Assembly (NCBI RefSeq): GCF_017308075.1
Contig: NZ_JAFKFX010000030.1
Location: forward strand, 1 to 64,000
DNA from: Allobosea sp.
GTDB taxonomy: Bacteria; Pseudomonadota; Alphaproteobacteria; Rhizobiales; Beijerinckiaceae
DNA length: 64,000 nt
Direction of reading: 5' to 3'
Positions 10,138 to 63,301 of this stretch are shown piece by piece; position 1 is the stretch's first letter, and every line of letters begins with the position of its first letter. The translations under genes were made by a program, and so were the position numbers. The notes beneath the pieces were generated by a model. It made no database searches and was not told where the DNA came from. It saw only the letters and a list, made by a program, of their open reading frames with translations.

Positions 10138-11001
10138 ATGCGGCTGATCATCGGCACAATCATCGTCTTTGCCTGCGTCTTCGGCGGGTATGCGGCGATG
10201 GGCGGCAAGCTCCTCGTCCTTTGGCAGCCGTTCGAGTTTGTTATCATTCTCGGTGCAGCGATGGGTGCCTTCATCATCGGCAACACCGGGCCGGTGCTCA
10301 AGTCCGTCCCCACCATGCTTGGTACGCTCGTGAAGGGCCCCAAGTACAATCGGGAGGCGTATGTCGAACTGCTGGCGATGCAGTATTCCCTGTACAGGCT
10401 TGTAAAGCAGAAGGGCATGCTCGCGGTCGAGCAGCACATTGAAGATCCGAGCGAGTCGGCGCTTTTCAATGCCTTTCCGACCTTTGCAGAGAACCATCAT
10501 GCGGTCGAGTTTGTCTGCGACTACATGCGCATGTTGACGATGGGCGCCGACAACGTCCACGAGATAGACGCTCTCATGGACGAGGAACTGGAGACGCACC
10601 ATCAGGAGCAGGAGCGTCTTGTTGCAGCCATGCAGTCGATCGCCGACGGAACACCAGCGCTCGGCATCGTCGCCGCCGTGCTCGGCGTGATTAAGACGAT
10701 GGGGGCGATCAGCGAGCCGCCGGAGGTGCTGGGCCATCTGATCGGCGGCGCGCTCGTAGGCACTTTCTTCGGCGTCTTCGTCGCCTACGGCTTCTTCGGG
10801 CCCATGGCGCAATCGCTCAAGAGCATCTTCGAGGCGGAATCCAAGTACTACCTTTCGCTCAAGGCGGGCCTCCTTGCCCATATCAGCGGCCAGCCGCCGG
10901 TGATGGCGGTAGAATTTGCCCGCAAGGCTCTGATGAGCGACGTCCGCCCGACCTTCAGCGAAGTGGAAGCGGCAACCGCCGATCTGCCCGCCAACGCCTG
11001 A
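10138..11001 (+). CDS. motA: Flagellar motor stator protein MotA
   Basis: The 287-residue product has four membrane segments: two at the N-terminus (residues 2-21 and about 33-50) and two in the GIVAAVLGVIKTMGAI and LIGGALVGTFFGVFVAYGFF stretches. The conserved TPALGIVAAVLGVIKTM segment carries the proton-channel proline, and the cytoplasmic loop has the charged YRLVKQKGMLAVEQHIEDP region that contacts FliG. The length matches alphaproteobacterial MotA. motB follows 22 bp later. The protein is the inner-membrane half of the ion-conducting stator. Confidence 0.96.
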   Translation: MRLIIGTIIVFACVFGGYAAMGGKLLVLWQPFEFVIILGAAMGAFIIGNTGPVLKSVPTMLGTLVKGPKYNREAYVELLAMQYSLYRLVKQKGMLAVEQHIEDPSESALFNAFPTFAENHHAVEFVCDYMRMLTMGADNVHEIDALMDEELETHHQEQERLVAAMQSIADGTPALGIVAAVLGVIKTMGAISEPPEVLGHLIGGALVGTFFGVFVAYGFFGPMAQSLKSIFEAESKYYLSLKAGLLAHISGQPPVMAVEFARKALMSDVRPTFSEVEAATADLPANA

Positions 11002-11023: not shown

Positions 11024-11896
11024 ATGGCCAAGCCCGCCCAGACGATCATCATCAAGAAGGTCAAGAAGGCCGCCCATGCGCACCATGGCGGGGCCTGGAA
11101 GATCGCCTATGCGGATTTCGTGACAGCGATGATGGCGTTCTTTCTGCTGATGTGGCTGATCAGCATGACGACGCAGGAGCAGAAAATCGGCCTGGCGGAA
11201 TACTTCGCGCCGGGGGCTGTGAGTGCCAGCACCAGTGGCGCTGGCGGCATCCTGATGGGCACCGCCCTGGACAAGTCAGGCAACAAGTCGTCGGCGCCCC
11301 GCGAAACGGCGAGCGGCGTCACCGGGCAGGAAGACGGAGCGCGCCGGGCGAGCTCAGGCCGCGCCAGCGACCGTCAGGTCACCCGCCCGGCCGCCGGCGC
11401 GCAGGCCCAGCACAGCGCCGCGGCCAGCCTCCGGCAAACGCTCCAGAACATGCCCGAAATGGCCGAGCTGTCGCGCAACATCGTGATCGAGCCGACCAAG
11501 GAGGGCTTGAACGTTTCCCTCGTGGACGAGGAGGGCCGCTCCATGTTCCCCGAGGGCTCGGTCGAGCCCTATGACCGCACCCGTCGCGTGCTCGAGGTGC
11601 TCGCGCCGACCCTGCGCCGGCTGCCCAACCAATTGTCCGTCACGGGCCACACGGCCGTCGCGCGCCCGGGCTCGGCGCGGGCCGTCGATTCCTGGAGCCT
11701 CACCGCCGGGCGCGCCCTCGCCGTGCGCAGGATCCTGTCGGGTGCCGGAATCCCGAACGACCGCTTCGCTTCCGTGACGGGGCGCGCCGACACCGAGCCG
11801 GTCTTCCCCGACAATCCCTACATCGCGCCGAACCGACGGGTGACGATCACACTGCTCGGCGCGGAACCGCCGCTGCCCCCGAACGTCTTGCGCTGA
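11024..11896 (+). CDS. motB: Flagellar motor stator protein MotB
   Basis: This 290-residue protein has the N-terminal motif HGGAWKIAYADFVTAMMAFFL. Asp31 is the proton-carrying aspartate at the start of the only membrane helix (about 32-48). After a low-complexity linker (residues 75-135) comes an OmpA-like peptidoglycan-binding domain (about 165-285) ending in NRRVTITLL. The domain reads VTGHTAV where many homologues have VTGHTD, a small deviation. With MotA it forms the stator anchored to the cell wall. motAB lie 7 kb from the main flagellar block. Confidence 0.95.
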   Translation: MAKPAQTIIIKKVKKAAHAHHGGAWKIAYADFVTAMMAFFLLMWLISMTTQEQKIGLAEYFAPGAVSASTSGAGGILMGTALDKSGNKSSAPRETASGVTGQEDGARRASSGRASDRQVTRPAAGAQAQHSAAASLRQTLQNMPEMAELSRNIVIEPTKEGLNVSLVDEEGRSMFPEGSVEPYDRTRRVLEVLAPTLRRLPNQLSVTGHTAVARPGSARAVDSWSLTAGRALAVRRILSGAGIPNDRFASVTGRADTEPVFPDNPYIAPNRRVTITLLGAEPPLPPNVLR

Positions 11897-22078: not shown

Positions 22079-22283
22079 GGCCCCTGCTCCCGATCTTTCC
22101 CGCGATCGCCTCGACGCTCCCCAGCGCGGCAATCGCAGCCAAGAGGTCAGCAACGCCCGTGCCAACATGGTTAATCTCAATCAAGATACTGATATAAAAC
22201 GAATAATTGAAAATCGACGACGACCCCGACGGCGGCATGAACCGGCCCGTGCGGCAGAAACGACCCGGCAGATTTTGCCTGTC

Positions 22284-22299
22284 TTAACGAGGTATTAAC
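22284..22299. promoter_or_regulatory. CtrA box between flgF and fliL
   Basis: TTAA-CGAGGTA-TTAACC at 22284-22300 matches the full CtrA consensus TTAA-N7-TTAAC. It lies 70-85 bp upstream of fliL and about 205 bp upstream of flgF, so it may serve one or both divergent flagellar operons. CtrA control of early flagellar genes is well established in alphaproteobacteria. Confidence 0.78.
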
Positions 22300-22368: not shown

Positions 22369-22881
22369 ATGTCGAAGAAGCCGAAAAAGGGCGATGAGGA
22401 GGGCGAAGCCGGCACGAATGCCGCGCCGAAGCCCGGCAAGAAGAAGCTCGTCATGATCGTCGGCGCGGTCGCCCTGCTCGCGCTCGGAGGCGGTGGCTGG
22501 TTCTTCTTCCTGAAGAAGCCGTCCGCCGAGCAGCTCGCGGCGGCCGAGGCCGCCGCTACCGCCAAGAAGCCCGTCACCTTCGTCGAGATGAAGGACATGA
22601 TGATCGGCATCTCGGCCGGCGGCCAGCAGGACCGTCAGCCGATCATCAAGATCAAGGTCGTGCTCGAGATCGCCGACGCCAAGATGTCGGAGCAGATCAA
22701 GCCGCTATTGCCGCGGGTCGAGGATGCCTTCCAGGTCTTCATGCGCGAGCTCAGGCCCGCGGACCTCGAAGGCTCGGCCGGCATGTACCGGCTCAAGGAA
22801 GAGCTGCTGCGACGCGTCAATGTCACGGTCCACCCGGCCAAGATCGACGCAGTGCTCTTCAAGGAACTGCTGATCCAATAG
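22369..22881 (+). CDS. fliL: Flagellar basal body-associated protein FliL
   Basis: The 170-residue protein has a Lys/Glu-rich cytoplasmic N-terminus, a single membrane helix (LVMIVGAVALLALGGGGWFFFL, about residues 27-48) and a periplasmic stomatin-like domain. Its end, RVNVTVHPAKIDAVLFKELLIQ, is typical of FliL. FliL surrounds or supports the stator and is located in the inner membrane. It is the first gene of fliL-fliM-DUF6468-motE, preceded by a CtrA box. Confidence 0.94.
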   Translation: MSKKPKKGDEEGEAGTNAAPKPGKKKLVMIVGAVALLALGGGGWFFFLKKPSAEQLAAAEAAATAKKPVTFVEMKDMMIGISAGGQQDRQPIIKIKVVLEIADAKMSEQIKPLLPRVEDAFQVFMRELRPADLEGSAGMYRLKEELLRRVNVTVHPAKIDAVLFKELLIQ

Positions 22882-22921: not shown

Positions 22922-24055
22922 ATGGCCACCGACGATCTCGACCTCGAAGCCTCCGCCAAGGAAAACGCTCCGCTGACGCCGGAAGGCATGGCAGCCGAAT
23001 GGGCGGCCATGCCCGACATCGCTCCCGACGAGAGCGAGGCGGAAGCCCATATCGACCGCCTGATGACTCAGGACGAGATCGACACCATGCTCGGCTTCTC
23101 CATCGGAGAAGACGGCAAGGGCGGCCGCAACGGCATTCAGGCGATCGTCGATTCCGGCTCGGTCACCTATGAACGCCTGCCGATGCTCGAGATCATCTTC
23201 GAGCGTCTGGTCCGGCTGCTCTCGACCAGCCTGCGCAACCTGTTCAGCGACAATGTCGAGGTGACGCTGGAAGGCATCCGCTCGGTCCGCTTCGGCGACT
23301 ACATCAACTCGATCTCGCTGCCGGCGATGCTCGCCGTCTTCAAGGCCGAGGAATGGGATAATTTCGGCCTCGTCACCATCGAATCCGCCCTCACCTATTC
23401 GGTTCTCGACACCATGCTGGGCGGCAAGCGCGGCCAGCCCGCGGCCCGCATCGACGGCAGGCCCTTCACCTCCATCGAGATGAACCTGCTGCGGCGGGTG
23501 ATCGGCGTGGTGCTCGGCGATGCCGAAGCCGCTTTCCGCCCGCTCTCGCCGGTGACCTTCAAGGTCGACCGCATCGAGTCGAATCCGCGCTTCGTCTCGA
23601 TCTCGCGCCCGGCCAACGCCGCGATCCGCGTCGAGCTGCGCTTCGACATGGAGGGGCGTGGCGGTTCGCTGCATGTCCTGCTGCCCTATGCCACCATCGA
23701 GCCGATACGCGAATTGCTGCTCGAAAGCTTCATGGGCGAGAAGCTCGGGCGCGACGCGATCTGGGAGAACCATCTCGCCACCGAAGTCTGGCAGGCGGAT
23801 GTCGCGGTCAAATGCGTGCTGCACGAATGCACGATGCCGCTGAAGCGGGTGATGAAGCTCGAGATCGGCGACACGCTGATGTTCGACGCCCGCCCCGAAG
23901 CGGTCGCCTCGCTGCGCTGCGGCGAGTTCATCGTCAGCGAGGGCCGGATCGGCCGCGTCGACGACAGGATCGCCGTCCAGGTCGTCAGCCCCTTGCGGCG
24001 TTCCAAGACCACGATGGCAGCCTTCGACACCAGCCATCTCACCCCGACAGCCTGA
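22922..24055 (+). CDS. fliM: Flagellar motor switch protein FliM
   Basis: The 377-residue protein shows LMTQDEIDTMLGFS, then YERLPMLEIIFERLVRLLSTSLRNLFSDNVEVTLEGIRSVRFGDY (middle domain) and VLDTMLGGKRG. The C-terminal SpoA domain carries LKRVMKLEIGDTLMFDARPEAVASLRCGEFIVSEGRIGRVDDRIAVQV. An extra N-terminal stretch of about 45 acidic residues precedes the family core, as in other Rhizobiales. FliM forms the C-ring and binds CheY-P. It lies 40 bp after fliL. Confidence 0.96.
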   Translation: MATDDLDLEASAKENAPLTPEGMAAEWAAMPDIAPDESEAEAHIDRLMTQDEIDTMLGFSIGEDGKGGRNGIQAIVDSGSVTYERLPMLEIIFERLVRLLSTSLRNLFSDNVEVTLEGIRSVRFGDYINSISLPAMLAVFKAEEWDNFGLVTIESALTYSVLDTMLGGKRGQPAARIDGRPFTSIEMNLLRRVIGVVLGDAEAAFRPLSPVTFKVDRIESNPRFVSISRPANAAIRVELRFDMEGRGGSLHVLLPYATIEPIRELLLESFMGEKLGRDAIWENHLATEVWQADVAVKCVLHECTMPLKRVMKLEIGDTLMFDARPEAVASLRCGEFIVSEGRIGRVDDRIAVQVVSPLRRSKTTMAAFDTSHLTPTA

Positions 24056-24072: not shown

Positions 24073-24522
24073 ATGACCCTCACCTTGATCGCCGATGCGC
24101 TGGTCGCCTGCCTGCTCGTCGCCACCATCATCACCTGCTATGTCCTCGCCAAGCGAATCGAACGCCTGAAGGCCGATGAAAGCTCGATGCGACAGACCAT
24201 CGGCGCGCTGATCGCCGCCACCGACACCGCCGAGCGCGCCATTGCCGGGCTGAAGCTGACTCTCGGCGACTGCGACCGCACTCTGGCCGAGCGCCTGCGC
24301 ACGGCCGAGCGCTATGCCGCCGACCTCGCCGCCCAGATCGAAGCCGGGCAAACCGTGATGGACCGCATCGGCCAGATCGTCGGCGCCGCGACCCTGGTCG
24401 CGCCCAAGGCCGAGCCGCAGCCCGCCGAGACGCCGACCGTCTCGCGCATGGCGAGCGCCGCCGATGCCGCTGCCGCGATCCGCGCCCGCGCTGCGCGCAG
24501 ACTCGAAGGCCAGGCTGCGTGA
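24073..24522 (+). CDS. DUF6468-type flagellar-locus membrane protein
   Basis: An ATG at 24073 gives 149 residues. One N-terminal membrane segment (LTLIADALVACLLVATIITCYVLAKRI) is followed by an Ala/Glu/Arg-rich coiled region (about residues 35-95) and a flexible C-terminus. This is the conserved but uncharacterised protein that follows fliM in many Hyphomicrobiales. Its stop overlaps the motE-like start by 4 bp (GTGA), so it is tightly coupled to the motor genes. Function unknown; a motor or basal-body role is inferred from synteny. Confidence 0.75.
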   Translation: MTLTLIADALVACLLVATIITCYVLAKRIERLKADESSMRQTIGALIAATDTAERAIAGLKLTLGDCDRTLAERLRTAERYAADLAAQIEAGQTVMDRIGQIVGAATLVAPKAEPQPAETPTVSRMASAADAAAAIRARAARRLEGQAA

Positions 24523-25340
24523 TCCAGTCGCCCCGCCTGATTCCAGCGGTCATCCTCGGCGCCATGGGCCTCCTGGCGCTGAAGCTGCTCGCCTGGACGG
24601 CGGAGCCCTCGCCCGGCCCGACATCCGCGAGCCAGCAGGCCGTGGCGGACAAGCCCGCGGCCGAGAAGGAAGTCTGGGGCCTGGCCAAGATCATCGCCCG
24701 TGCCCATGCACCCGACACTTTCCTCGACCCCATGGTCACCGGCACCATCGACCCGCCCGAGCCCAAGCTGTCGCCCCAGGAGCAGGCGAGGCGCGACGCC
24801 GCCGCCACTGCCAACCCCAGCAACAAGGCCGGGCTGATGAACGGGACGGCACAGCCCGTCTCGGCCTCCGAGCGGGCCCTGCTCGAACGCCTCAGCAAGC
24901 GCCGCGAGGAGATCGAGGCGCGCATGCGCGAGCTCGACATGCGCGAGAAGCTGCTCGACAACGCCGAGAAGAAGCTGGGCGGCCGGGTCGAGGACCTGAA
25001 GACGCTCGAGGAGAAGGTCGAGGGGCCGAAGAAGAAGGACGGCGAGGAGAGCCAGGCGATCAAGAACCTGGTGATCATGTACGAGACGATGAAGCCCAAG
25101 GACGCCGCCCGCGTCTTCGACCGGCTGTCGCTCGACGTGATGGTCCCGGTCGTCCAGCAGATGAACCCGCGCAAGATGTCCGACGTGCTCGCCGCGATGT
25201 CGCCGGAAGCGGCGGAGCGCCTGACCGTCGCGCTCTCCCTGCGCGGCCGCGCCACCGGCGCCGAGCGGGCCGCTGCGGCGGCGCCCGCGGGACCGGCCGG
25301 GAACGAATTGCCGGCGATCGAGCCCGCCCGGCGCCGCTGA
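24519..25340 (+). CDS. motE: MotE-like flagellar protein (MgtE-N-type C-terminal domain)
   Basis: The 273-residue protein has an N-terminal membrane or signal segment (residues 5-25), a disordered Pro-rich part, and a coiled coil rich in Glu/Arg/Lys (about residues 115-165: ERLSKRREEIEARMRELDMREKLL). A C-terminal MgtE-N-like module follows (MYETMKPKDAARVFDRLSLDVMVPVVQQMNPRKMSDVLAAMSPEAAERLTVAL). In Sinorhizobium MotE is described as a periplasmic chaperone for the motor protein MotC. The start is a GTG overlapping the preceding stop. It closes the fliL operon. Confidence 0.82.
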   Translation: MIQSPRLIPAVILGAMGLLALKLLAWTAEPSPGPTSASQQAVADKPAAEKEVWGLAKIIARAHAPDTFLDPMVTGTIDPPEPKLSPQEQARRDAAATANPSNKAGLMNGTAQPVSASERALLERLSKRREEIEARMRELDMREKLLDNAEKKLGGRVEDLKTLEEKVEGPKKKDGEESQAIKNLVIMYETMKPKDAARVFDRLSLDVMVPVVQQMNPRKMSDVLAAMSPEAAERLTVALSLRGRATGAERAAAAAPAGPAGNELPAIEPARRR

Positions 25341-25368: not shown

Positions 25369-26334
25369 CTATTGCTGAACGGTGATGCCGTTCTCCTTGA
25401 TGATCGTCGCATAGGTCGTGACATAGCGGTCGATCACGGCCTCGAACTCGGCACCGGGCCGCGCCAGCACGGTGAAGCTCAGGGCCTGCAGCCGTTCCTT
25501 GACCTCCGGCCGCGCGAGCGCGGCGAGCCAGGCGCGCTCCAGCGCCTCGCGCGCCGGCGCCGGCGTGTCGCGGCGCACCACGACGCCGAACCAGCTATCC
25601 GAGAGAAGGTCCGGCAAGCCGAGCTCCGCGAAGGTCGGGACATCCGGCAACTCGGGCACGCGCTTGTCGGCGGTGACGGCGAGCGCCGTGAGCTTGCCCT
25701 CCGCGATCGGCTGGACGACGTCCGGCAGGTTGCTGAGCGCGAAGTCGATCCGGCCGGCATAGAGGTCGACGAAAAGCTGCGCCGTGCCGTTATAGGGGAC
25801 GTGGACGGCCTTGCCCCCGGCGAGGCGCAGGAAATGCTCGGCGCCGAGATGGGGCGAGGTGCCGATTCCCGGCGAGCCATAGCTCGCTCCGGCGCCGGCA
25901 TCGCGCAGGCGCGCCAGGAAGCCCTGCCAGTCGACCTTCAGCGAGGGAGCGACCGTCAGCACATGCGGCACCACCGTCGCCTGGACCAGCGGGGCGAAGG
26001 CACGCTGCCAGTCCGCCGTGCGTGTCCGCAGCGTGATGTTCGCCGCGAAGCTGTTGGCGATCATCAGCATGGTGTGGCCGTCGGCCGGCGATTTCAGCGT
26101 CTCAGCGCCGGCGATGACGGTCGCAGCGCCGGCGATGTTCTCGATCACCACGCTCTGACCCAGCGCGTTCTTGAGGCTCTCCTGGACCAGACGAGCGACC
26201 GGGTCCATCGCCGTGCCGGCAGTGAACGGCAGGATGAGCCGCACCGGCCGGGTCGGTTTCCAGGCGCTTTGCGCCCTGGCGAGACTCGGCAGGGCCAGCC
26301 CTGCGAGAAGAAGCGCACGTCGATCAAGCAGCAT
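25369..26334 (-). CDS. Tripartite tricarboxylate transporter receptor (Bug family) binding protein
   Basis: The 321-residue protein has a signal peptide (MLLDRRALLLAGLALPSLARA, with a twin-arginine-like DRRALLLAG start) and the Bug core: PTRPVRLILPFTAGTAMDPVARLVQESLKNALGQSVVIENIAGAATV, SYGSPGIGTSPHLGAEHFLRLAG and VPYNGTAQLFVDLYAGRIDF. It converges on motE with 28 bp between. No TctAB partner lies nearby. It may be cotranscribed with the RidA-like gene 165 bp upstream. The ligand is unknown. Confidence 0.87.
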   Translation of the reverse strand: MLLDRRALLLAGLALPSLARAQSAWKPTRPVRLILPFTAGTAMDPVARLVQESLKNALGQSVVIENIAGAATVIAGAETLKSPADGHTMLMIANSFAANITLRTRTADWQRAFAPLVQATVVPHVLTVAPSLKVDWQGFLARLRDAGAGASYGSPGIGTSPHLGAEHFLRLAGGKAVHVPYNGTAQLFVDLYAGRIDFALSNLPDVVQPIAEGKLTALAVTADKRVPELPDVPTFAELGLPDLLSDSWFGVVVRRDTPAPAREALERAWLAALARPEVKERLQALSFTVLARPGAEFEAVIDRYVTTYATIIKENGITVQQ

Positions 26335-26498
26335 CGATTTCCTCCGGGCAGAAACTCACAAAAAAAGCGCCTCGCGGCCTCGCCGAGGCCGGTCTGGCCA
26401 TGTCGATCCCGCGGCGGCGCCGACGCCACCCATCTGCGAGGATGCATCCACGTCTCATCCGTTCCCGTTCCGGCAACGCATGAGACGCGGGCAGGCCT

Positions 26499-27260
26499 TC
26501 AGAGCTGCGTATCAATCACGATCTCTCGCGACAGGCCGCGCACATCCATCTCGTAATCGAGCACCGCCACCGGCGGCCGCGAGAAATGCCAGACCAGATC
26601 AGCGCCGCTCCCCGTCACCAGGGCCAGCACGTCCGCCAGCAACGGATGGATGTCCTGCGCCGTGTAGACGTTGACCGTCATGGCGTCCCGCCATGTCCGG
26701 CCAAGTCCGGCGAGGCGCCGCTCCATCTCGCCCATCACCCATTCCGCCTTGGCCCTGACGCCCTCGGGCGAGACATCGCCGAGCCGGATCGTGCCCTCGG
26801 CATAGCTGGCGGCGCCCTCCGGGGCCTCGCCGCTGCCGGCCACGATGAAGCTCGGGCGCGCCGCGGCGTCGGGAACGGTATAGCTGAAGGCATGCAGCGA
26901 GACCGTCTCGGGCTTGCCGAGCTCCGGGCAGATATTGGTCCGCGCGACCGGGTTGACCTTGCCCTGAAGCAGGCCCCACTGCTCGAGCCGCGAGGCATAG
27001 ACCTTGTTCAGCGCCGCAAAGCCCGCCTCGGAGAACGGCTCGGGCGAGCGCAGCTCGCAGGAGCAGAACGCCGTCAGCGGCCTGCCGATCCGCTTCAGAT
27101 GGGCTTCGATCGCCGCCAGGCCCTGCTCCAGCGGAAGCGGCGCGGACAGGCGCGCCCTCTCGATCCGGAAGCCCGGCTCGGCCACGACGCCGCCGGAATA
27201 CTGGAACACCGCCGGAATGAACCGGTAGCTGCCGTCTTGACTGGATTGGGTCGAATACAT
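26499..27260 (-). CDS. RidA-superfamily-like protein of unknown function
   Basis: The 253-residue cytoplasmic protein has a C-terminal half (EWVMGEMERRLAGLGRTWRDAMTVNVYTAQDIHPLLADVL) resembling the YjgF/RidA fold, in which an MTVNVYT-like strand follows a helix. The N-terminal half contains two Cys (FCSCELRSPEPFSEAGF) and is unlike classical RidA. It could be a deaminase-like or ligand-binding member. I do not recognise a named family. It is divergent from the LysR regulator at 27410 and is its probable target. Confidence 0.6.
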   Translation of the reverse strand: MYSTQSSQDGSYRFIPAVFQYSGGVVAEPGFRIERARLSAPLPLEQGLAAIEAHLKRIGRPLTAFCSCELRSPEPFSEAGFAALNKVYASRLEQWGLLQGKVNPVARTNICPELGKPETVSLHAFSYTVPDAAARPSFIVAGSGEAPEGAASYAEGTIRLGDVSPEGVRAKAEWVMGEMERRLAGLGRTWRDAMTVNVYTAQDIHPLLADVLALVTGSGADLVWHFSRPPVAVLDYEMDVRGLSREIVIDTQL

Positions 27261-27409
27261 CGGATCGGCTCCTCGTCACGCTCTGGCATTTTTTTAAGAG
27301 ACCGGCCGAGCGCTCAGCCAGATCGGAATCGCAGAACGAGCGTTGCCGACCCGGCAACGCTGCTCTAGCCTTCGGAGCGGCTGGTGGTCGGGCCGCAAGG
27401 CTCCCTCCA

Positions 27410-28330
27410 ATGTCCCTCACCCGATACAGATACTTCGCCGCCGTCGCCGATCATGGCTCGGTCCGTGAAGCGGCTGACGCGCTGCGTGTCGCCCCGTCGG
27501 CGGTCAGCCGCCAGATCGCCGGCCTCGAGGAGGAATACAGCGCAGCCCTTTTCGAACGCCGGGCGCGCGGCATGCGCCTGACCACGGCCGGCGCCGCGGT
27601 GCTGGAAACGGCGCGCACCGTCCTGAACTGCGTCCAGCGGGCCCGTTCGACCATCGAGGAGCTGCAGGGCATCAAGCGTGGCCATGTCCGGGCCTGGACC
27701 GTCGAGGGCGCGATCGACGACTTCTTCTATCCCGCTTTGGCGCGTTTTTCCGAAGCGCATCCTTCGGTGGGCTTCGAGGTGATGATCGCAAGCTCGGACC
27801 AGCTCGTGCAGCGCCTCCTGCATGACGAGGCCGACCTGGTGGTGGCGTTCAACCCGACGCTGCATCGCAGTGTCGCATCGCTGGCGGAAATCGCCGACCC
27901 GCTGGTCGTGGCCGTCCGCCCCGGCGATGCCTTCGCAACGCGCTGCTCGGCGACCATCGCCGAGATCGGCGCGCTGCGTCTGGCCCTGCCCGACCGGACC
28001 TTCGGCATCAGGCGCCTCGTCGACGACGTCGCCGCGGCGACCGGCATCGAGCTGAAGCCGGCGCTGGTCACGAACTCGATCGAGTCGTTGCGTTGCTTCG
28101 CCCGGGCCGGCATGGGCGCCAGCGTCGTGACGAGCTTCTCGATCCAGCGCGACGTCGCCGAGGGGCGCCTGATCGGCATCCCGATCCAGGGGCGCAATCT
28201 ACAGCGGGCCTGCGTCAAGATCTGCGTGCGGAAAGGCCGGAACCTGCCACCGGCGGTACGGGCGCTGGCAAGGCATCTGGCCCGCAGCGCGCGCGACTAC
28301 ACCTCGCGGAAATACGAGAGCACGCCCTGA
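27410..28330 (+). CDS. LysR-family transcriptional regulator
   Basis: The 306-residue protein has an N-terminal HTH (RYRYFAAVADHGSVREAADALRVAPSAVSRQIAGLEEEYSAALFERRARGMRLTTAG) followed by a periplasmic-binding-protein-like effector domain (about residues 90-295). It is transcribed away from the RidA-like and Bug genes with a 149-bp intergenic region, the standard LysR arrangement. It probably activates those genes in response to a small molecule. HTH placement and length are normal. Confidence 0.92.
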   Translation: MSLTRYRYFAAVADHGSVREAADALRVAPSAVSRQIAGLEEEYSAALFERRARGMRLTTAGAAVLETARTVLNCVQRARSTIEELQGIKRGHVRAWTVEGAIDDFFYPALARFSEAHPSVGFEVMIASSDQLVQRLLHDEADLVVAFNPTLHRSVASLAEIADPLVVAVRPGDAFATRCSATIAEIGALRLALPDRTFGIRRLVDDVAAATGIELKPALVTNSIESLRCFARAGMGASVVTSFSIQRDVAEGRLIGIPIQGRNLQRACVKICVRKGRNLPPAVRALARHLARSARDYTSRKYESTP

Positions 28331-28564
28331 CGACGACCGGCGGCTGGGGCGCCGGCGGCGGTCGCAGCCCCGTGCCCTGCAAGAGGCCGTGGCGTAACGG
28401 CCGATGAGCCGAGCCGAGTCGCTTGATTTGCGCTTCTCGGATTTTTCCGACAGACTGCCCAGACCTCGCCGACCCATGAGGACGCTTAGCTTAGCCGAAG
28501 ATACCGGCACAATTCGCGTCGCGTTCTCCGCCGTTGCCTTGGCAACATGCGCAGGAGAAGAGGG

Positions 28565-29014
28565 ATGAGAGCAGTCAATCGAGCTATCGAGATCGCGGCC
28601 AAGGCGCACTCTGGTCAGCAGGACAGGACGGGCATGCCTTTCATCGCCCATCCCATGCGGGTCATGGCGGGCTTTCTCTTCGCAGGACACGAGCAGCTGG
28701 CCGTGATCGCCGCTCTGCACGACGTCGTCAGGAGCACCGATTGGACACTCGGACGACTGGCCGATGAGGGCTATTCGGTGAAGACGGTCGAGGCGATCGC
28801 CTCGCTCATGCGCGCCGAAGAGGAGGAGTATCTCGCCTATGTCGAACGCGCGACGGCCAATCCGCTTGCGCGCCTCGTGATGGAAGCGGATGTCAGGGAC
28901 CAGAGCGACGAGGTCCGCCTCTCGAAACTGCCGCAGACGGCACAAGCCCGCCTTCGCCGGGAATATGGCGAAGCTCTGGATCTGATTGCCGGAGCACCGC
29001 TCGTCAAGACCTGA
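28565..29014 (+). CDS. Degenerate SpoT/MESH1-like HD-domain protein
   Basis: An ATG at 28565 with AGGAGAAGAGGG before it gives 149 residues. The layout matches small (p)ppGpp hydrolase-type HD proteins: AAKAHSGQQDRTGMPFIAHPMRV, then AALHDVVRSTDWTLGRLADEGYS and VMEADVRDQSDEVRLSKL. The metal-binding H...HD...D residues are kept. The catalytic Glu-Asp after HD(T/V)V is Arg-Ser here, and the Asn of the DN motif is Gln. Hydrolase activity on ppGpp is therefore doubtful. It is a single gene between a LysR regulator and the TPR gene. Confidence 0.72.
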   Translation: MRAVNRAIEIAAKAHSGQQDRTGMPFIAHPMRVMAGFLFAGHEQLAVIAALHDVVRSTDWTLGRLADEGYSVKTVEAIASLMRAEEEEYLAYVERATANPLARLVMEADVRDQSDEVRLSKLPQTAQARLRREYGEALDLIAGAPLVKT

Positions 29015-29110: not shown

Positions 29111-29126
29111 TTAACCGCCCGTTATC
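29111..29126. promoter_or_regulatory. CtrA-like box before the large TPR gene
   Basis: TTAA-CCGCCCG-TTATCC at 29111-29127 has one mismatch to TTAA-N7-TTAAC. It lies 70-85 bp upstream of the start at 29196, the same distance as the box before fliL. This supports coregulation with flagellar genes. Inferred. Confidence 0.5.
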
Positions 29127-29195: not shown

Positions 29196-32100
29196 GTGGC
29201 AGTCTTGCGTATCCTGCGGTCCCTGAGCTTCGGCATCGGTCTGGCGGCGATGAGCCTTGCGCTCGGCCAGAGCCAGTCGGCCCTGGCCGCCAATGCCGAA
29301 CTGCGTGGCGAGGCGATGCAGGCCGGCTTCGGTCGCCTCGCCTTCACCTTCGACGAGCCGGTCACGACCCGGGCGCGCGTCTCCAACGGCGTGCTGGTCG
29401 TCGGCTTCAGCCAACCGGTGAAGGTCGACCCCAGCCGTATTTCCAGGGAACTCCCGGCCTATGTCTCGCTGGCGCGGGTCGATCCGGATGGCCGGGGCCT
29501 GCGCTTCGCACTCGCCAAGACCTATCGCGCCAACCTGCTCGAAGCGGGCGACCGCGCCTTCATCGACCTCCTGCCCGAGAACTGGGTCGGGCAATTGCCG
29601 GGCCTGCCGCCCGAAGTCCTCGCCGAGCTGACCAAGCGCCTCCGCCTCGCCGAATCCCGGGCACGCGATACCGCCCGCGCCCCGGCGCCGGAGCCGAAGC
29701 CGCTCGGCTTCCGCAGCGTGCGCCTGCCGACGCTCGACCGGCTGATGTTCAACGCGCCTGCCGAGGCGCAACTGACCCCCCGGCTCGACAATGGCCAGCT
29801 GACGCTGGCCTTCGACCAGCCGCTGCAGCTCGAGGCAGGGAAGATCCGTTCGCTGCTGCCGGCGGGCTTCACGCTGGAAAGCGCCGGGAACGAAGGCGGC
29901 GGCACCGAGCTCGTCTTCAGCGTTCCCAAGGAACGCGAGCTGCGCAGCTTTCGCGAGGACCATGGCTGGACCGTCGATCTCGCGCACCCGGCAGCGGCGA
30001 CGGCACTGACGCTGTCGGCCCTGGAGGCCGGCACTGCCGCCCGCGGTTCGCAGCCGGCCGCGCCGCCGCAGGCAGCGGCCGTGCAACCGAAGGCAGCGCC
30101 CGCGAGTGCGGCCGCCACTCCCGCGACCCCGCTGGCGGCACCCGCTGCCCCTGCAGCCCCTGCGCCAGTCGCGGCTCCGGCTGCGGTCGACCCGGCCCCG
30201 CGGGACATTATCGTCAGCTCCGTCGCCAATGGCGATGGTGGCCGCCTCGATTTCCGCTTCTCCCGCCCCACCGGCGCCGCTGCCTTCGCCGAGCCCGGAC
30301 TGGTGACGCTCGTCTTCGACACCCGCGACACGCTCGATCCCGATCGGCTGAAAGGCCTGCTCCCCGCCTTCATCCGCGACGTCACGGTGACGCGGGAGGC
30401 CAAGATCACCGTGCTGCGCCTGCGCACCCGCAGCCAGCAGATCACCCGTCTTTCCGATGACGGCGCGAGCTGGTCGCTCTCCTTCGGCGAAAAGCTCGGC
30501 AAGCCGGCCTCGGCTCTGGCGCCGCGGCGCGAAACCGATGAGCGCGGCGAGACCGTGATGGCCGTCCCGGTTCCCGGCATGACCGGCGTGCACTGGCTCG
30601 AGAATCGTGACGGCGGCGCGCCAATGGCGGTCGCGACCGCGCTCGGCCCGACCCGAGCCGTCCCCAAGCCTTATCGTTTCGTCGAATTCGGCCTGCCTCA
30701 GACCGCCCATGGCATCGCCATCAGCGCGCTGGCGGACGACGTCATGGTCAGGGCCGGCACGGACGAGGTGGAGATCGCTCGCAATGGCGGCCTCGTCGTC
30801 AGCCTCGATGCCGACAAGCCGAACGAGCCGGAAAAGAAGGCGACCGACAGCGCCGCCGCACCGCTACTCGACGCGCAACGCTGGTCGAGCCTGCGCACCG
30901 ACGACGTGCGCGCGCGGACCCAGGAGCTGCTGCGCGACGTCGCCGATGCCTCGCGCGGCCGCAAGTCGGAAGCCCGGTTGGCCCTGGCCCGTTTCCTCGT
31001 CGCCAACGAGATGCTGCCCGAGGCGGCCGGCCCGCTCAACGCCCTTCTCGCCGATGACCCTGCGATGCGCGGCAACCGCGAGGCGCTTTTCCTCAAGGGC
31101 GTGATCGCCACGCAGATGCACCGCCATGCCGAGGCGCTGAAGGCCTTCGACGCCGGCCCGATCAAGGAAGAGGCCGAAATCGGCCTCTGGCGGGCACTGG
31201 TCGAGCAGCGACTCGGCCGCAACGCTCCGGCCCTCGCCGGCTTCCGGCGGGCCGAGACGATACTCGACGGTTATCCGCCCGATCTGCAGGCGCAGTTCCG
31301 CCCGGCCATGGCCCGCGCCGCACTCGCCATGCAGGACACGCTGGTGGCCGAGCGCCAGATCGCCCATCTCGCCGAGCTGTCGGCGAGCCTGGTCCCGGCC
31401 GAGGACCTCGCACTGCTGCAGGCCATGCTCGACGACGCCAGCGGGCGACCGGAAGCGGCGCTCAACGGCTATCGTGCGCTTTTCGAGGCCGTCAGCCGGC
31501 CGGTCGCCGCCGAGGCGCAATTGCGCGCCGTCAGGCTCGCCCGCGCCGAGAAGCGGCCGGAGCTCTCGGTCGACGAGGCGGCGGCCCGGCTGGAGACCGT
31601 CTCGGCGATCTGGCGCGGCGGCGAGATCGAGATCGAGGCCCTGGCCGAACTCGGGCGCATCTATGCCCAGCAGCAGCGCTGGCGCGACGCCTTCCAGATC
31701 GCCCGGAGGGCGAACGAGAATTTCCCCGATCATCCCGCGACCCGCCTGCTGCACGACGAGACCGCCCAGCGCTTCGAGGCGCTGTTCAGCGATCCCGACA
31801 TCGAGAAGCTGCCACGCCTCGAGGCGCTGGCGCTGTTCTACGACTTCAAGGAATTCCTGCCGGTCGGCCGGCGCGGCGACGAGATCACCCGGCTGCTCGC
31901 CGACAGGCTGGTCGAACTCGATCTGCTCGATCAGGCCGGCGACATCCTGCACTACCAGATGGAGAAGCGCCTGAACGGCGCCGCGCGCTCCACCGTCGCT
32001 GCCCGCCTCGCCATGATCCGGCTGATGAACCGCAGGCCGGCGGAGGCGCTGCAGGCCCTGGTTTCGACCCGCCTCGCCGAGCTGCCCGGCGACGTCAAGC

Positions 32101-32630
32101 GCGCCCGCCTGCTGCTCGAGGCCAAGGCGCTCTCCGATCTCTCGCGCACCGACCAGGCGCTTGACCTACTGGAAGGCGAGAGTGGGCCGGAGGTCGACCG
32201 GCTGCACGCCGACATTCTGTGGAACGGCCGCCGCTGGCGCGAGGCCGGCGAGGCGCTGGAACGCATCCTCGGCGAAAGCTGGCGCGGCGAGGCTCCGCTA
32301 GGCGACGGCGAACGCGGCGACGCGATGCGCGCCGCCATCGCCTATGCCATGTCCGACGAGGCGCTATCGCTCGACCGCCTGCGCACCAAATTCGCCGGCA
32401 AAATGGCCCAAAGCCCCGACGCCCGGCTGTTCGCCTTCGTCACCGGGGCGAGCCGCGCCAGCGCGGCCGACATCCGCGAGGTCGCGCGCTCTGCCGCCGG
32501 CTCCGACACGATGCAGGATTTCCTGAAGGCCTATCGCAAACGCTATCCGGCATTTTCCAGCGCGGTCCGCGACAAGCCCCAGGCCGACGACGCGGACGCG
32601 CCGCCGCCGCCCCGCCCCGGCCAGGGCTGA
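29196..32630 (+). CDS. Large exported TPR-repeat protein in the flagellar locus
   Basis: This 1144-residue protein starts at a GTG and has a signal peptide (LSFGIGLAAMSLALGQSQSALA). Residues about 35-265 form a beta-rich region with repeated GRLAFTFDEP/VVGFSQPV/GQLTLAFDQP-like strands. Residues 267-335 are an Ala/Pro linker. A third beta unit follows (GGRLDFRFSRPTGAAAFAEPGLVTLVFD). From about residue 565 to 1120 there is a helical array of TPR-like repeats (LALARFLVANEMLPEAAGPLNALLADDP and similar). I do not recognise a named family. Its position between motE and fliP and its CtrA-like box suggest a periplasmic motor or basal-body scaffold, comparable in design to PflA or in role to MotC. Confidence 0.8.
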   Translation: MAVLRILRSLSFGIGLAAMSLALGQSQSALAANAELRGEAMQAGFGRLAFTFDEPVTTRARVSNGVLVVGFSQPVKVDPSRISRELPAYVSLARVDPDGRGLRFALAKTYRANLLEAGDRAFIDLLPENWVGQLPGLPPEVLAELTKRLRLAESRARDTARAPAPEPKPLGFRSVRLPTLDRLMFNAPAEAQLTPRLDNGQLTLAFDQPLQLEAGKIRSLLPAGFTLESAGNEGGGTELVFSVPKERELRSFREDHGWTVDLAHPAAATALTLSALEAGTAARGSQPAAPPQAAAVQPKAAPASAAATPATPLAAPAAPAAPAPVAAPAAVDPAPRDIIVSSVANGDGGRLDFRFSRPTGAAAFAEPGLVTLVFDTRDTLDPDRLKGLLPAFIRDVTVTREAKITVLRLRTRSQQITRLSDDGASWSLSFGEKLGKPASALAPRRETDERGETVMAVPVPGMTGVHWLENRDGGAPMAVATALGPTRAVPKPYRFVEFGLPQTAHGIAISALADDVMVRAGTDEVEIARNGGLVVSLDADKPNEPEKKATDSAAAPLLDAQRWSSLRTDDVRARTQELLRDVADASRGRKSEARLALARFLVANEMLPEAAGPLNALLADDPAMRGNREALFLKGVIATQMHRHAEALKAFDAGPIKEEAEIGLWRALVEQRLGRNAPALAGFRRAETILDGYPPDLQAQFRPAMARAALAMQDTLVAERQIAHLAELSASLVPAEDLALLQAMLDDASGRPEAALNGYRALFEAVSRPVAAEAQLRAVRLARAEKRPELSVDEAAARLETVSAIWRGGEIEIEALAELGRIYAQQQRWRDAFQIARRANENFPDHPATRLLHDETAQRFEALFSDPDIEKLPRLEALALFYDFKEFLPVGRRGDEITRLLADRLVELDLLDQAGDILHYQMEKRLNGAARSTVAARLAMIRLMNRRPAEALQALVSTRLAELPGDVKRARLLLEAKALSDLSRTDQALDLLEGESGPEVDRLHADILWNGRRWREAGEALERILGESWRGEAPLGDGERGDAMRAAIAYAMSDEALSLDRLRTKFAGKMAQSPDARLFAFVTGASRASAADIREVARSAAGSDTMQDFLKAYRKRYPAFSSAVRDKPQADDADAPPPPRPGQG

Positions 32631-32741: not shown

Positions 32742-33527
32742 TCAACTCCCATAGCTCTTCACCAGCGAGCCGGCGACCAGTCCCCAGCCATCGACCAGCA
32801 CGAAGAAGATCAGCTTGAAGGGCAGCGCCACCGTCACCGGCGGCAGCATCATCATGCCGACCGACATCAGCACCGAGGCGACCACGAGGTCGATGATCAG
32901 GAAGGGCACGAACAGCAGGAAGCCGATCTCGAAGGCGCGCCTGAGCTCCGAGATCATGAAAGCCGGGACCAGCACCTGGATCTGGATGTCCTCGGCCCGC
33001 TCCGGTCGTGGCTCGCGCGACATCTCCAGGAACAGGGTCAGATCCTTCTCGCGGACATGTTTCAGCATGAAGTCGCGAAACGGCACGATCCCGCGGTTGA
33101 AGGCTTCCTGCGGCTGAATCTGCCCGGCGATCAGCGGCGCCCCGGCAACGCGATAGGCCTCCTTCAGCGTCGGCGTCATCACGAAGCCGGTCAGGAACAG
33201 TGCGAGCCCGATGATCACCGCATTGGGCGGCGCCGTCTGCGTGCCGATCGCCGAGCGCAGCAGCGACAGCACCACCGCGATGCGCGTGAACGAGGTCACC
33301 ATGATCAGGATCGACGGCGCCAGCGAGAGCACCGTGATCACCGCGATCAACTGAAGCGCCCGCTCGGTGACGCCACCCCCCTGACCGAGATCCAGCGAGA
33401 GCGTCTGCGCCAGTGCCGGGGCGGGCAGCCACAAGCCGAACAGCGCCAGGCAGAGCGGCAGCGAGACGAGCGCGGCCGTGCCGGCCCGCCGCCTCATCCC
33501 CGACCTCTTGGAATATGTCTCGCCCAT
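32742..33527 (-). CDS. fliP: Flagellar type III export gate protein FliP
   Basis: The 261-residue product has a cleavable signal (ending LWLPAPALA) as in most FliP proteins, then four membrane helices. The family signatures ITVLSLAPSILIMVTSFTRIAVVLSLLRSAIGTQTAPPN and FMISELRRAFEIGFLLFVPFLIIDLVVASVLMSVGMMMLPPVTVALPFKLIFFVLVDGWGLVAGSL are complete. A second ATG 10 codons in is an alternative start. It forms the core of the export gate with FliQ and FliR. It lies 124 bp downstream of fliO, though fliQ and fliR are encoded elsewhere on the plus strand. Confidence 0.96.
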   Translation of the reverse strand: MGETYSKRSGMRRRAGTAALVSLPLCLALFGLWLPAPALAQTLSLDLGQGGGVTERALQLIAVITVLSLAPSILIMVTSFTRIAVVLSLLRSAIGTQTAPPNAVIIGLALFLTGFVMTPTLKEAYRVAGAPLIAGQIQPQEAFNRGIVPFRDFMLKHVREKDLTLFLEMSREPRPERAEDIQIQVLVPAFMISELRRAFEIGFLLFVPFLIIDLVVASVLMSVGMMMLPPVTVALPFKLIFFVLVDGWGLVAGSLVKSYGS

Positions 33528-33651: not shown

Positions 33652-35199
33652 TCAGCCCTTCGACTTCGGATCGCGCCCGAGCAGGCGCGCGAACTCCGCC
33701 TCGATCGCATCGACGGAGAACGGATCGGTCTCCTCCGGCTTCGGCTCGGCCGGCTTGGCTGCTTCGGGCGCCGGCTGCTCGACCTTGGCGACCTCGGTCA
33801 CGGTCTCCGCAGGCACGGCCTTAGAAGGCTTCGGCTCGACAGGCTTGGCCTCTGCCGGCTTCGGCTCGGCAGGCTTGGCCTCGACGGGCTTGGCCTCAGC
33901 AGGCTTGGCCTCAGCAGGCTTGGCCTCGGCGGGTTTGGGCTCGGCGGGCTTGACCTCGGCGACCTTGGCTTCGACGGCCTTGGCCTCCGAAGGCTTCGCC
34001 TCGGCCGGCTTCGACTCCGCGGCAGGCGCAGCCGGCAGGACCGGCGGCGGCGCCTCGGGCGATTGGGCCTGCGTTTCCGGCTTGGCCGCGGGCGGGGGCT
34101 CGGCCGAGGAACGGGGCGTCTCCGCCCTGGCCGGCTCGGTCTTCGCAGGCCCGGCGCTGGCGACGGGCTGCGGTTTACGCTCCGGCGCGGCGACGACGGG
34201 CGGAACGACCATCGGCGCCTCCGCCGGGCGCGCCGGGCCGGGCTTCAGCCCCAGCGCCATTTCCAGCTCGGCCTCCATGTCGAGGACCGGGCGCGAAGAG
34301 GCCGGGATGCCCGGTGTCGGCAGCGGCGGCTTCAGCTCGCTGACCGGCGCAGGCGGAGCGATCTTGGCGGCCGGCGGAACCGGCACGACCGGAGGGACGG
34401 CCGGCTGGGAGGGCTCGACCTCGGAACGCGCTCCGGCCGCGGACGGGCGGACGGCGGAGAACGGGCGCTTCAGTGCCTCCTCGAGCTGGCGGGCCATATC
34501 GCCGAGCTCGGCCTGACCAGCCGCGGCGGCTTCGCGCGCACTCTGGGCGACCGCGGCCGAGGCCACCACCGCGGCTGCTGCAACCGGCGGCACCACGGGT
34601 TGCGGCGCAGGGCGCACCGGCGGGATCGGAGGCAGCGGCTGAGCGGTCGGGCGCGGCGGCGGCGCCAAAGGCTGCTGGCGCGGAGGCGGCGCCGGCATCG
34701 CAGGCGCTGGTGCCGGAGGCTCGGGCATCATGGGGATGGGCATCGGCGCCGGCTCGGCCAATGGCGGCGCACGGCGCGGCTCTTCGGCAGTCTCGGGGCG
34801 CAAGGGCAATTCGGGCGGCACCAGCGGCTCGAGCGCCAGCGGACGCTCGGACATCCCCTCACTCGGCAGCGGCGGCGCGACCCGCGCCCCGCTGCGCATG
34901 ATATTGGTTTCGATGACGACGTCGGAGGCCCCGCCGATCATCACGAGATGCTCGACATTGTCGCGCCGCACCAGCACGAGCTGGCGCTGCCTGTCGAGGT
35001 CGTGGATGTCGACCACGCCGAGCCGCGGCTGGCGGGTCCTGCCGCTGGCCTGGCCCTTGAACCTGAGCCGTCCGCCGCTGATCCGCCGCAGGATGAAGGC
35101 GAAAAGGGCCACCAGCACGAGCACGATCGCGAAGGCGATAATCCAGCGCAGGCCGGTCGAGAGTTCGAAGCCAAACAAAGTCTGCAAGGTTTGCCTCAT
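33652..35199 (-). CDS. fliO: Flagellar biosynthesis protein FliO with an unusually long low-complexity tail
   Basis: Of 515 residues, only the first 100 or so are recognisable: a membrane helix (LRWIIAFAIVLVLVALFAFILRRI) and the FliO core LGVVDIHDLDRQRQLVLVRRDNVEHLVMIGGASDVVIETNI. The remaining 400 residues are Pro/Ala/Glu/Lys-rich and probably disordered, and include a run of KPAEA-type pentapeptides. Typical FliO is 100-150 residues. FliO stabilises FliP assembly, and fliP lies just downstream. The tail would extend into the cytoplasm. Its role is unknown. Confidence 0.85.
   Translation of the reverse strand: MRQTLQTLFGFELSTGLRWIIAFAIVLVLVALFAFILRRISGGRLRFKGQASGRTRQPRLGVVDIHDLDRQRQLVLVRRDNVEHLVMIGGASDVVIETNIMRSGARVAPPLPSEGMSERPLALEPLVPPELPLRPETAEEPRRAPPLAEPAPMPIPMMPEPPAPAPAMPAPPPRQQPLAPPPRPTAQPLPPIPPVRPAPQPVVPPVAAAAVVASAAVAQSAREAAAAGQAELGDMARQLEEALKRPFSAVRPSAAGARSEVEPSQPAVPPVVPVPPAAKIAPPAPVSELKPPLPTPGIPASSRPVLDMEAELEMALGLKPGPARPAEAPMVVPPVVAAPERKPQPVASAGPAKTEPARAETPRSSAEPPPAAKPETQAQSPEAPPPVLPAAPAAESKPAEAKPSEAKAVEAKVAEVKPAEPKPAEAKPAEAKPAEAKPVEAKPAEPKPAEAKPVEPKPSKAVPAETVTEVAKVEQPAPEAAKPAEPKPEETDPFSVDAIEAEFARLLGRDPKSKG
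33815..34020 (-). repeat. 15-bp tandem repeats coding KPAEA pentapeptides within fliO
   Basis: The coding sequence consists of imperfect 15-nt units, such as GGCCTCAGCAGGCTT on the plus strand, giving Lys-Pro-Ala-Glu-Ala or close variants in minus-strand translation. About twelve units are seen. Near-identical adjacent copies point to slippage or unequal crossover and probably to length variation between strains. Confidence 0.85.
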
Positions 35200-61806: not shown

Positions 61807-61882
61807 GGCGCTCTCGGCGACGGTTCGAAATGGCGGCTCTTCGGCCTCGCTCGCCCCTGCCTCCTTCTTGCCGGCGGCATGG

Positions 61883-61988
61883 TTAACGAGCGGTAAACGA
61901 CTCGGCAGGAATTGCCGCGCCCGGCAGGTTTGAACAGGCCCCTGCCCTGCCGGCGATCAGGCCGGAGATCATTAAACTTCTGATTAAG
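61883..61988. promoter_or_regulatory. Two near-consensus CtrA boxes between fliX and flgI
   Basis: TTAA-CGAGCGG-TAAAC at 61883-61898 has one mismatch to TTAA-N7-TTAAC. TTAA-N8-TTAAG at 61972-61988 has the right half-sites with one extra spacer base. They lie in the 262-bp divergent region; the first is about 77 bp upstream of fliX and the second about 81-97 bp upstream of flgI. Confidence 0.5.
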
Positions 61989-62068
61989 AACGGTTTTTGC
62001 TTTTTCTCGAACTGGCACGGAGTTCGCATGGCCATCGCAGTCCGACGATGATCGAAACCGGTGGCCGC

Positions 62069-63301
62069 ATGTTCGCCCTCTTCCCGACCCGCCATTTGCT
62101 GACGCAGGCCGCCGCATCGCTGCTGCTCGTCGCTACGGCGTGGGCGGCCGACCTGGCGCCGACCCCGATCCCAGGCCAGGCGCGCGGCGGCGTGCCGGCA
62201 AAGCTCGCCCCGGCCTCCTTCGGCGGCACCCATGGCACCTCCCCCGGCATCGGCGGCGCGCTCTCGCGCATCAAGGACCTCGCCTCGGTCGAGGGCGTCC
62301 GCTCCAACCAGATTCTCGGCTACGGCATCGTCGTCGGCCTCAACGGCACCGGCGACACGCTGAACAACGCCCCCTTCACCAAGCAGTCGCTGCAGGCGAT
62401 GCTGGAGCGGCTCGGCGTCAACACCCGCGGCGCCAATATGCGCACCGCCAACGTCGCAGCGGTGATGGTGACGGCGAACCTGCCGCCCTTCGCCACGCAG
62501 GGCACCCGGCTCGACGTCACCGTCTCGGCGCTCGGCGACGCCAAGTCGCTGCAGGGCGGCACCCTGCTCGCGACGCCGCTGCTCGGCGCCGACGGCGAGG
62601 TCTATGCGGTCTCGCAAGGGCCGGTCGCGATCTCCGGCTTCTCGGCCGAGGCCGAGGCCGCCAAAATCACCCGCGGCGTGCCCACCGTCGGCCGTATCGC
62701 CAATGGCGGCCTGGTCGAGCGCGAGATCGAGTTCGCCCTGAACAAGCTCAAGACGCTGCGCCTGTCGCTGCGCAACCCCGATCTGACGACCGCCCGGCGC
62801 GTCGCCGCGGCGATCAACGATTTCATCGGCGGCGACTCCGCCGAGCCGACCGACCCGTCGACCATCGTGCTGCAGATTCCGCCGCGCTTCCACGGCAACA
62901 TGATCCGCCTGCTGACCGATATCGAGCAGCTGCGCGTCGAGCCGGACCAGGGCGCGAGGGTCATCATCGACGAGCGCTCGGGCATCATCGTGATGGGTCG
63001 CGACGTGCGCGTCTCCACCGTCGCCGTCGCCCAGGGCAACCTGACCGTGACGATCTCCGAGGAGCCGCAGGTCAGCCAGCCGAACGAATTCGGCAATGGC
63101 CGCACGGTCGTCGTCCCGCGCAGCAATGTCAGGGTCGACACCGAGGGCACCAACAAGCTCGCCCTCGTCAAGGAAAGCGTGACCTTGCGCGAACTCGTCG
63201 ACGGACTCAACGCGCTGGGCATCGGCCCGCGCGACCTGATCTCCATCCTTCAGGCCATCAAGGCAGCCGGCGCGCTGCAAGCCGAAATCGAGGTGATGTA
63301 A
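62069..63301 (+). CDS. flgI: Flagellar P-ring protein FlgI
   Basis: The protein has 410 residues from the ATG at 62069 with a signal peptide (MFALFPTRHLLTQAAASLLLVATAWA). Another in-frame ATG lies at 62048. The mature part has SRIKDLASVEGVRSNQILGYGIVVGLNGTGDTLNNAPFTKQSLQAMLERLGVN, NVAAVMVTANLPPFATQGTRLDVTVSALGDAKSLQGGTLL and LRELVDGLNALGIGPRDLISILQAIKAAGALQAEIEVM, the complete FlgI signature. FlgA at 19462 is its chaperone. Its TAA overlaps the next ATG by one base (TAATG). Confidence 0.97.
   Translation: MFALFPTRHLLTQAAASLLLVATAWAADLAPTPIPGQARGGVPAKLAPASFGGTHGTSPGIGGALSRIKDLASVEGVRSNQILGYGIVVGLNGTGDTLNNAPFTKQSLQAMLERLGVNTRGANMRTANVAAVMVTANLPPFATQGTRLDVTVSALGDAKSLQGGTLLATPLLGADGEVYAVSQGPVAISGFSAEAEAAKITRGVPTVGRIANGGLVEREIEFALNKLKTLRLSLRNPDLTTARRVAAAINDFIGGDSAEPTDPSTIVLQIPPRFHGNMIRLLTDIEQLRVEPDQGARVIIDERSGIIVMGRDVRVSTVAVAQGNLTVTISEEPQVSQPNEFGNGRTVVVPRSNVRVDTEGTNKLALVKESVTLRELVDGLNALGIGPRDLISILQAIKAAGALQAEIEVM

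Follow-up and report, generated by a model that had tools for sequence, protein, structure and literature searches.

A secreted AMIN-like and tetratricopeptide repeat protein of Allobosea is a probable flagellar-motor scaffold of the MotK/FssB/PflA kind

Within a 64,000-nucleotide stretch of an Allobosea sp. genome of 5.55 Mb (assembly GCF_017308075.1, contig NZ_JAFKFX010000030.1, positions 1 to 64,000; hereafter the window), we examined a forward-strand open reading frame at 29196..32630 whose 1144-residue product, P0001, we describe as a MotK/PflA-like protein with AMIN-like and tetratricopeptide repeat (TPR) parts. The GTG start codon lies immediately 3' of an in-frame TGA, and the frame is a real gene, because its base composition is of the coding type (third-codon GC 0.87) and Bosea sp. 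WAO, the sole named relative found among the genome contigs searched, carries an orthologue with 87% identity. The protein begins with a Sec-type signal peptide ending in ALA (residues 1-31, 29196..29288, read by eye from the sequence), followed by three beta domains (S1 to S3), with an Ala/Pro-rich linker between S2 and S3 (about residues 280-335, 30033..30200, also read from the sequence), a further beta segment (S4) and a TPR region of ~560 residues. All of these features are given for the + strand. A preliminary description of this DNA had seen an exported TPR protein of this length with a signal peptide, a beta-rich N terminus, an Ala/Pro linker and a helical array of about 550 residues, and the reading frame, the by-eye signal and the profiles bear it out.

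S1 (residues 28-140, 29277..29615), S2 (residues 172-272, 29709..30011) and S3 (residues 330-440, 30183..30515) were delimited by profile comparison and a low-confidence fold, and they are homologous to one another, with profile-profile probabilities of 97.5% for S1-S2, 93.5% for S1-S3 and 97.8% for S2-S3, compared with at most 5.8% in nine reversed controls. S4 (residues 460-552, 30573..30851) is a separate conserved segment supported by profiles and a low-confidence fold, for which profile comparison detected no relationship to S1-S3. The S1-S4 profiles match P0001 and 30 of 31 orthologues from the same taxonomic order, 29 of the 31 having been in the alignment that built the profiles; the exception (L025) has an N terminus that is out of register. 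Of 20 proteins from across the class, 8 have three S1-S3-type matches at E under 0.05 (one of them only if a fragment is counted), 6 have two and 2 have one, and the copy number of the array therefore varies. When a model of the N-terminal half was compared with the PDB by Foldseek, the matches included PilQ at rank 1 (3jc8, E 0.0049), the PilQ B2 domain at rank 3 (4aqz, E 0.017), a Campylobacter jejuni motor scaffold chain at rank 12 (9hmf_K, E 0.087), which we take from its length to be PflA, and AmiC at rank 17 (4bin). On these comparisons S1-S3 appear to be AMIN-like, not proven AMIN domains.

The TPR region (residues 560-1122, 30873..32561) is defined by the family profile and by sequence matches in the PDB. 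In P0001 alone the repeats are weak, the best Pfam match having an E of 0.001, under the cut-off; the signal is firmer in an alignment of 30 family members, 22 of which have a TPR_2 match with an E of 1 or lower (best value 7e-9). Searched against the PDB, the profile of this region matches TPR proteins by sequence, among them a designed one at 3e-10. Two conserved motifs mark the family, WRG[GD]xxE at residues 806-812 (31611..31631) and a stretch at residues 878-896 (31827..31883) centred on YDFxE-x-x-P-x-G-R-x-GDE.

Upstream of the P0001 gene, on the same strand, lie fliL (22369..22881) and fliM (22922..24055), both named from Pfam/NCBIfam matches, a DUF6468 gene (24073..24522, E 1.8e-25) and a motE-like gene (24519..25340). 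The name motE rests here on an MgtE_N match just under the cut-off (24.6 bits vs 25.9), a weak match to the Borrelia collar protein FlbB and position; the FlbB match (E 1.6e-5) agrees with published E-ring homology. Downstream and on the opposite strand are fliP (32742..33527, E 1.3e-85) and a fliO-like gene with a long C-terminal extension (33652..35199, E 9e-6, below the cut-off). The earlier placement of the gene between motE and fliP/fliO thus holds on the fliP/fliO side, whereas motE is not the immediate neighbor in the window: the two genes are ~3.9 kb apart and separated by four genes, a lineage-specific insert at 25369..29014 that carries tctC, an unknown gene, lysR and an HD-like gene. 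The tctC/unknown/lysR part is common to the window and two related loci (L004 and L022).

We compared 31 contexts of our own choosing from the same order: L004, ten that a first search for relatives had yielded and twenty yielded by the search of the order. The pair fliL-fliM lies upstream of the family gene in 30 of them (the exception, L026, is a short contig), and in 27 the distance from the motE stop to the first possible start of the family gene is at most 251 bp. Larger gaps of 627 and 1201 bp occur in two contexts, and the insert accounts for L004, L022 and the window. At the other end, 23 of the 31 have fliP downstream on the opposite strand. Across 20 contexts from the class, motB abuts or overlaps the family gene upstream on the same strand in 7 (motB E 4e-5 to 2e-9). 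The gene order in Azospirillum brasilense is TPR-motA-motB, and Erythrobacter aureus carries a 548-residue form, with no S-domain matches, inside a flagellar cluster. In Roseomonas marmotae the order is fliM, a DUF6468-like gene, a motE-like gene, four other genes, motA and a homologous protein of 809 residues that matches the TPR profile at E 1.3e-14 in a search of 8 sequences. This cluster is on plasmid p1318-2, where the 809-residue protein (L149, 6252-8681) is annotated as hypothetical.

The gene also has its own CtrA-like box, TTAACCGCCCGTTATC, with 1 mismatch (29111..29126, +), 70-85 bp upstream, where the preliminary description had placed one. Scanning with the CtrA consensus gave 11 matches in the window with up to one mismatch (overlaps counted separately) vs 0.09 expected, the others including boxes before motA, before fliL (22283..22299, 0 mismatches) and in the fliO-flgB gap. 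Of the 32 genes from the window and the 31 contexts, 19 have such a box no more than 130 bp from their first possible start, all 8 same-genus genes examined among them; in 300 draws of random stretches of the same loci the number averaged 0.6 and never exceeded 4. Because the box is kept near the gene across relatives, it evidently stayed with the P0001 gene when the insert split that gene from motE.

Family members were sought by their TPR region in an order sample of 101 genomes and a class sample of 190 genomes (Alphaproteobacteria). In the order sample 60 genomes have a strong family match, 69 have FliM and 61 have DUF6468 over the cut-off, and every one of the 60 carriers has both FliM and DUF6468. 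These counts exclude TPR matches at E 3e-4 to 1e-3 in three genomes (G054, G069 and G097) and a second, short match in G064, as well as four genomes with DUF6468 below the cut-off (G035, G040, G043 and G057). The class sample gave 105 family matches, or 103 after removal of two weak ones (G134, 5e-13; G231, 9e-6), and 98 of these 103 carriers have FliM (Fisher p 2e-35). The five without it (G156, G158, G210, G235 and G262) have listed completeness of 75-97%, and 10 class-sample genomes have FliM and no strong family member. The correlation with flagellar genes on which the preliminary description had hung its proposal is therefore present across genomes. Among viral contigs the sole relative is a fragment, a viral fold search gave nothing useful and a plasmid search with L128 as query gave no match.

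The distribution of the family is nearly complementary to that of MotC. In the order sample the family occurs in 60 genomes, MotC in 14 and both in only one, G047, where one of two FliM copies lies ~5 kb from the family gene and the other ~16 kb from motC. Nine genomes of this sample have FliM without a strong family match; 8 of them carry MotC (NCBIfam NF009442), and the ninth (G069) is 83% complete and has DUF6468. Five MotC genomes lack a FliM match. It follows from this split, and from the two FliM systems of G047, that in the order sample each flagellar type has either the P0001 family or MotC. No significant relationship links P0001 itself to MotC: the NCBIfam MotC models are unmatched by it at E up to 1 and absent from the genome carrying the window, and comparison of MotC with the TPR-region profile gave only 1.7-18%. 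As a separate observation, the MotC frame is 779-1159 residues long in 6 of the 14 MotC genomes (G040, G057, G076, G089, G097 and G112; e.g. L081, L083 and L092), far exceeding the 446-position model, and 398-578 residues in the other 8; the five long frames that we read have long low-complexity N termini, and some of the called starts are too far upstream.

Several published motor proteins are comparable with P0001. MotK of Cereibacter sphaeroides is described as a periplasmic protein that is needed for rotation of Fla2 and binds MotE and MotB2, encoded in a fliL-pflI-motE-motA cluster (PMC10954123), which the Roseomonas gene order resembles. It is reported to combine a signal peptide and C-terminal TPR-like helices, as in P0001, with an N-terminal AMIN-like fold, to which S1-S3 may correspond, but it has 652 residues and one AMIN-like domain (PMC10954123) against 1144 residues and three putative ones. 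That paper also proposed remote homologues of MotK among Roseobacteraceae and Caulobacteraceae, reporting low similarity to the former and none by BLAST to proteins of the latter (PMC10954123); the Roseomonas protein directly after motA may form an indirect bridge to MotK or CC_2058 through its TPR profile match. FssB (CC_2058) of Caulobacter crescentus likewise has a Sec signal and a TPR domain, and its deletion is reported to give a paralysed flagellum like that of a motB mutant (PMC7885107); its gene is described as immediately following CC_2059, the MotE homologue, and most order-level contexts of the P0001 family have this arrangement. PflA is described as an AMIN-like beta sandwich, a loop and TPR repeats, forming spokes that run from the E-ring (FlgY, which corresponds to MotE) to the stators (PMC11870540, PMC13023049), and as an AMIN-containing motor scaffold, AMIN domains being reported to bind peptidoglycan (PMC12403147). 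P0001 resembles PflA in its TPRs and in putative AMIN-like beta domains, the structural match to 9hmf_K being weak, and differs in having three linked beta domains where one is reported in Campylobacter and Helicobacter. Sinorhizobium MotC is given as a periplasmic, TPR-rich MotE partner (PMC13023049), in the same functional slot.

Taken together, we consider it probable that P0001 is secreted and serves as a flagellar-motor scaffold of the MotK/FssB/PflA kind, linking MotE to the MotB stator. Its domain layout, its linkage to flagellar genes, its place beside motE or motB and the near-complete exclusion of MotC in the order sample all support this reading, and the earlier suggestion of a periplasmic PflA-like scaffold tied to MotB and MotE finds good support in gene order, in co-occurrence and in the phenotypes published for the closest relatives. 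By analogy with these homologues, P0001 would bind MotE and MotB and would share the spoke geometry, and its loss would give a paralysed phenotype. The three-copy AMIN-like array may anchor the protein to peptidoglycan or to neighboring periplasmic motor parts, and the TPR superhelix would then span radially, with the MotE E-ring docked to one side of it and MotB to the other, such that stator units could be recruited, activated or held open at the rotor. Cells without P0001 would be expected to build flagella that do not turn.

A number of results weigh against this interpretation. The likeness of P0001 to MotK, CC_2058 and PflA is one of published descriptions, not of sequence alignment, and in the Roseomonas match a composition bias correction of 26 bits stands beside a score of 43. 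Pfam AMIN and AMIN-like are each matched by 2 of 30 family members (best E 0.013 and 0.0072), AmiC as a single sequence has no significant match to the S1-S4 profiles, and a sequence search of the PDB with the S1-S2 profile found no match. The AlphaFold model of the N-terminal half, built from three sequences, is weak (predicted local distance difference test score 46); no Foldseek match to it has an E below 0.001, and small heat-shock proteins take rank 2 and many other places in the top 50. The predicted fold of the TPR half is poor and has no structural match in the fold search. At the level of the class, 4 of the 20 proteins have no S1-S3-type domain at E under 0.05, the S profiles find no clear AMIN-like domain in the Azospirillum protein (best 0.027) or the Roseomonas protein (best 0.12), and 5 of the 20 contexts have no recognised flagellar neighbor.

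The rival that survives best is a role in flagellar assembly or export, in which P0001 would be a basal-body or rod/P-ring assembly factor encoded beside fliP/fliO, and cells without it would have no flagellum. The opposite-strand fliP downstream in most order-level contexts and the gene's own CtrA-like box, as basal-body operons have, speak for such a role. However, the partners conserved on the strand of the P0001 gene are motE or motA/motB, fliP is convergent with that gene and so offers no co-transcription, and the published relatives are reported to be flagellated but non-rotating when mutated (PMC10954123, PMC7885107), and we judge this explanation improbable. Positioning of the flagellum or pole is less probable still: here P0001 would be a cell-wall hub like FimV or TipF, with an indirect effect on motility. 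TPR proteins act as polar hubs elsewhere, and AMIN-like domains suggest contact with the cell wall, but the direct coupling to motE and motB and the replacement by MotC argue otherwise, and P0001 has no Pfam match to LysM at E up to 1. That P0001 is an unrelated envelope TPR protein, among flagellar genes by chance, is scarcely credible: although TPR sequences diverge quickly and unspecific TPR matches come easily, the FliM co-occurrence in both samples already contradicts it, and gene order is conserved.

The core idea of a motor scaffold of this kind has appeared in print before, for proteins that are homologues or analogues, namely FssB/CC_2058 (2021), MotK (2024) and the PflA-like spokes (2025-26). 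The preliminary description knew of no named family, yet MotK (PMC10954123), FssB/CC_2058 (PMC7885107) and the PflA-like group (PMC11870540, PMC13023049) cover such proteins, and its comparison with PflA is not new either, MotC, MotK and CC_2058 being treated in print as PflA counterparts (PMC11870540, PMC13023049). The main texts of these last two papers do not mention Rhizobiales, Hyphomicrobiales, Bosea, Bradyrhizobium or Azospirillum, and their supplementary species tables may hold members; at the level of titles and the beginnings of abstracts, no description of the family in Bradyrhizobium, Methylobacterium or Rhizobiales was found beyond the MotK, E-ring and PflA papers. What is new here is the triple AMIN-like array, a family defined by sequence that spans the class and has two conserved motifs, and the MotC exclusion. 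A structural analogy is in this way turned into a sequence-defined family, usually located next to motE or motB, which a simple profile recovers in 103 of 190 alphaproteobacterial genomes and which can be annotated and tested genetically, and DUF6468-motE-TPR emerges as a unit of many alphaproteobacterial motors. The chances are about even that a single AMIN-array/TPR family, definable by sequence, was present early in Alphaproteobacteria as the general MotE partner of the class, with MotK, FssB and the TPR-only forms as shortened branches and MotC as the replacement in a second, Rhizobiaceae-type flagellum. If so, the triple array would make a longer, multiply anchored spoke that should be visible by electron cryotomography in Bosea and its relatives.

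Elsewhere in the window, motA (10138..11001) and motB (11024..11896) are on the + strand, both from Pfam/NCBIfam, as are the assignments beyond the fliO-like gene, where flhB is followed by a PAS-histidine kinase-receiver hybrid. The names flgH, flgA, flgG, flgF, flgB, flgC, fliE, fliQ, fliR and cckA were given from position and sequence appearance, with no family search. Within the insert, the HD-like frame (28547-29014, 155 residues) matches a RelA/SpoT N terminus over residues 13-74 only. A further CtrA-like box lies at 61882-61898, upstream of a reading frame at 61997-63301. The FliO-like protein is 515 residues long, and only ~70 of its N-terminal residues match the FliO family; AMIN or LysM domains have been reported on FliO of other phyla (PMC12403147).

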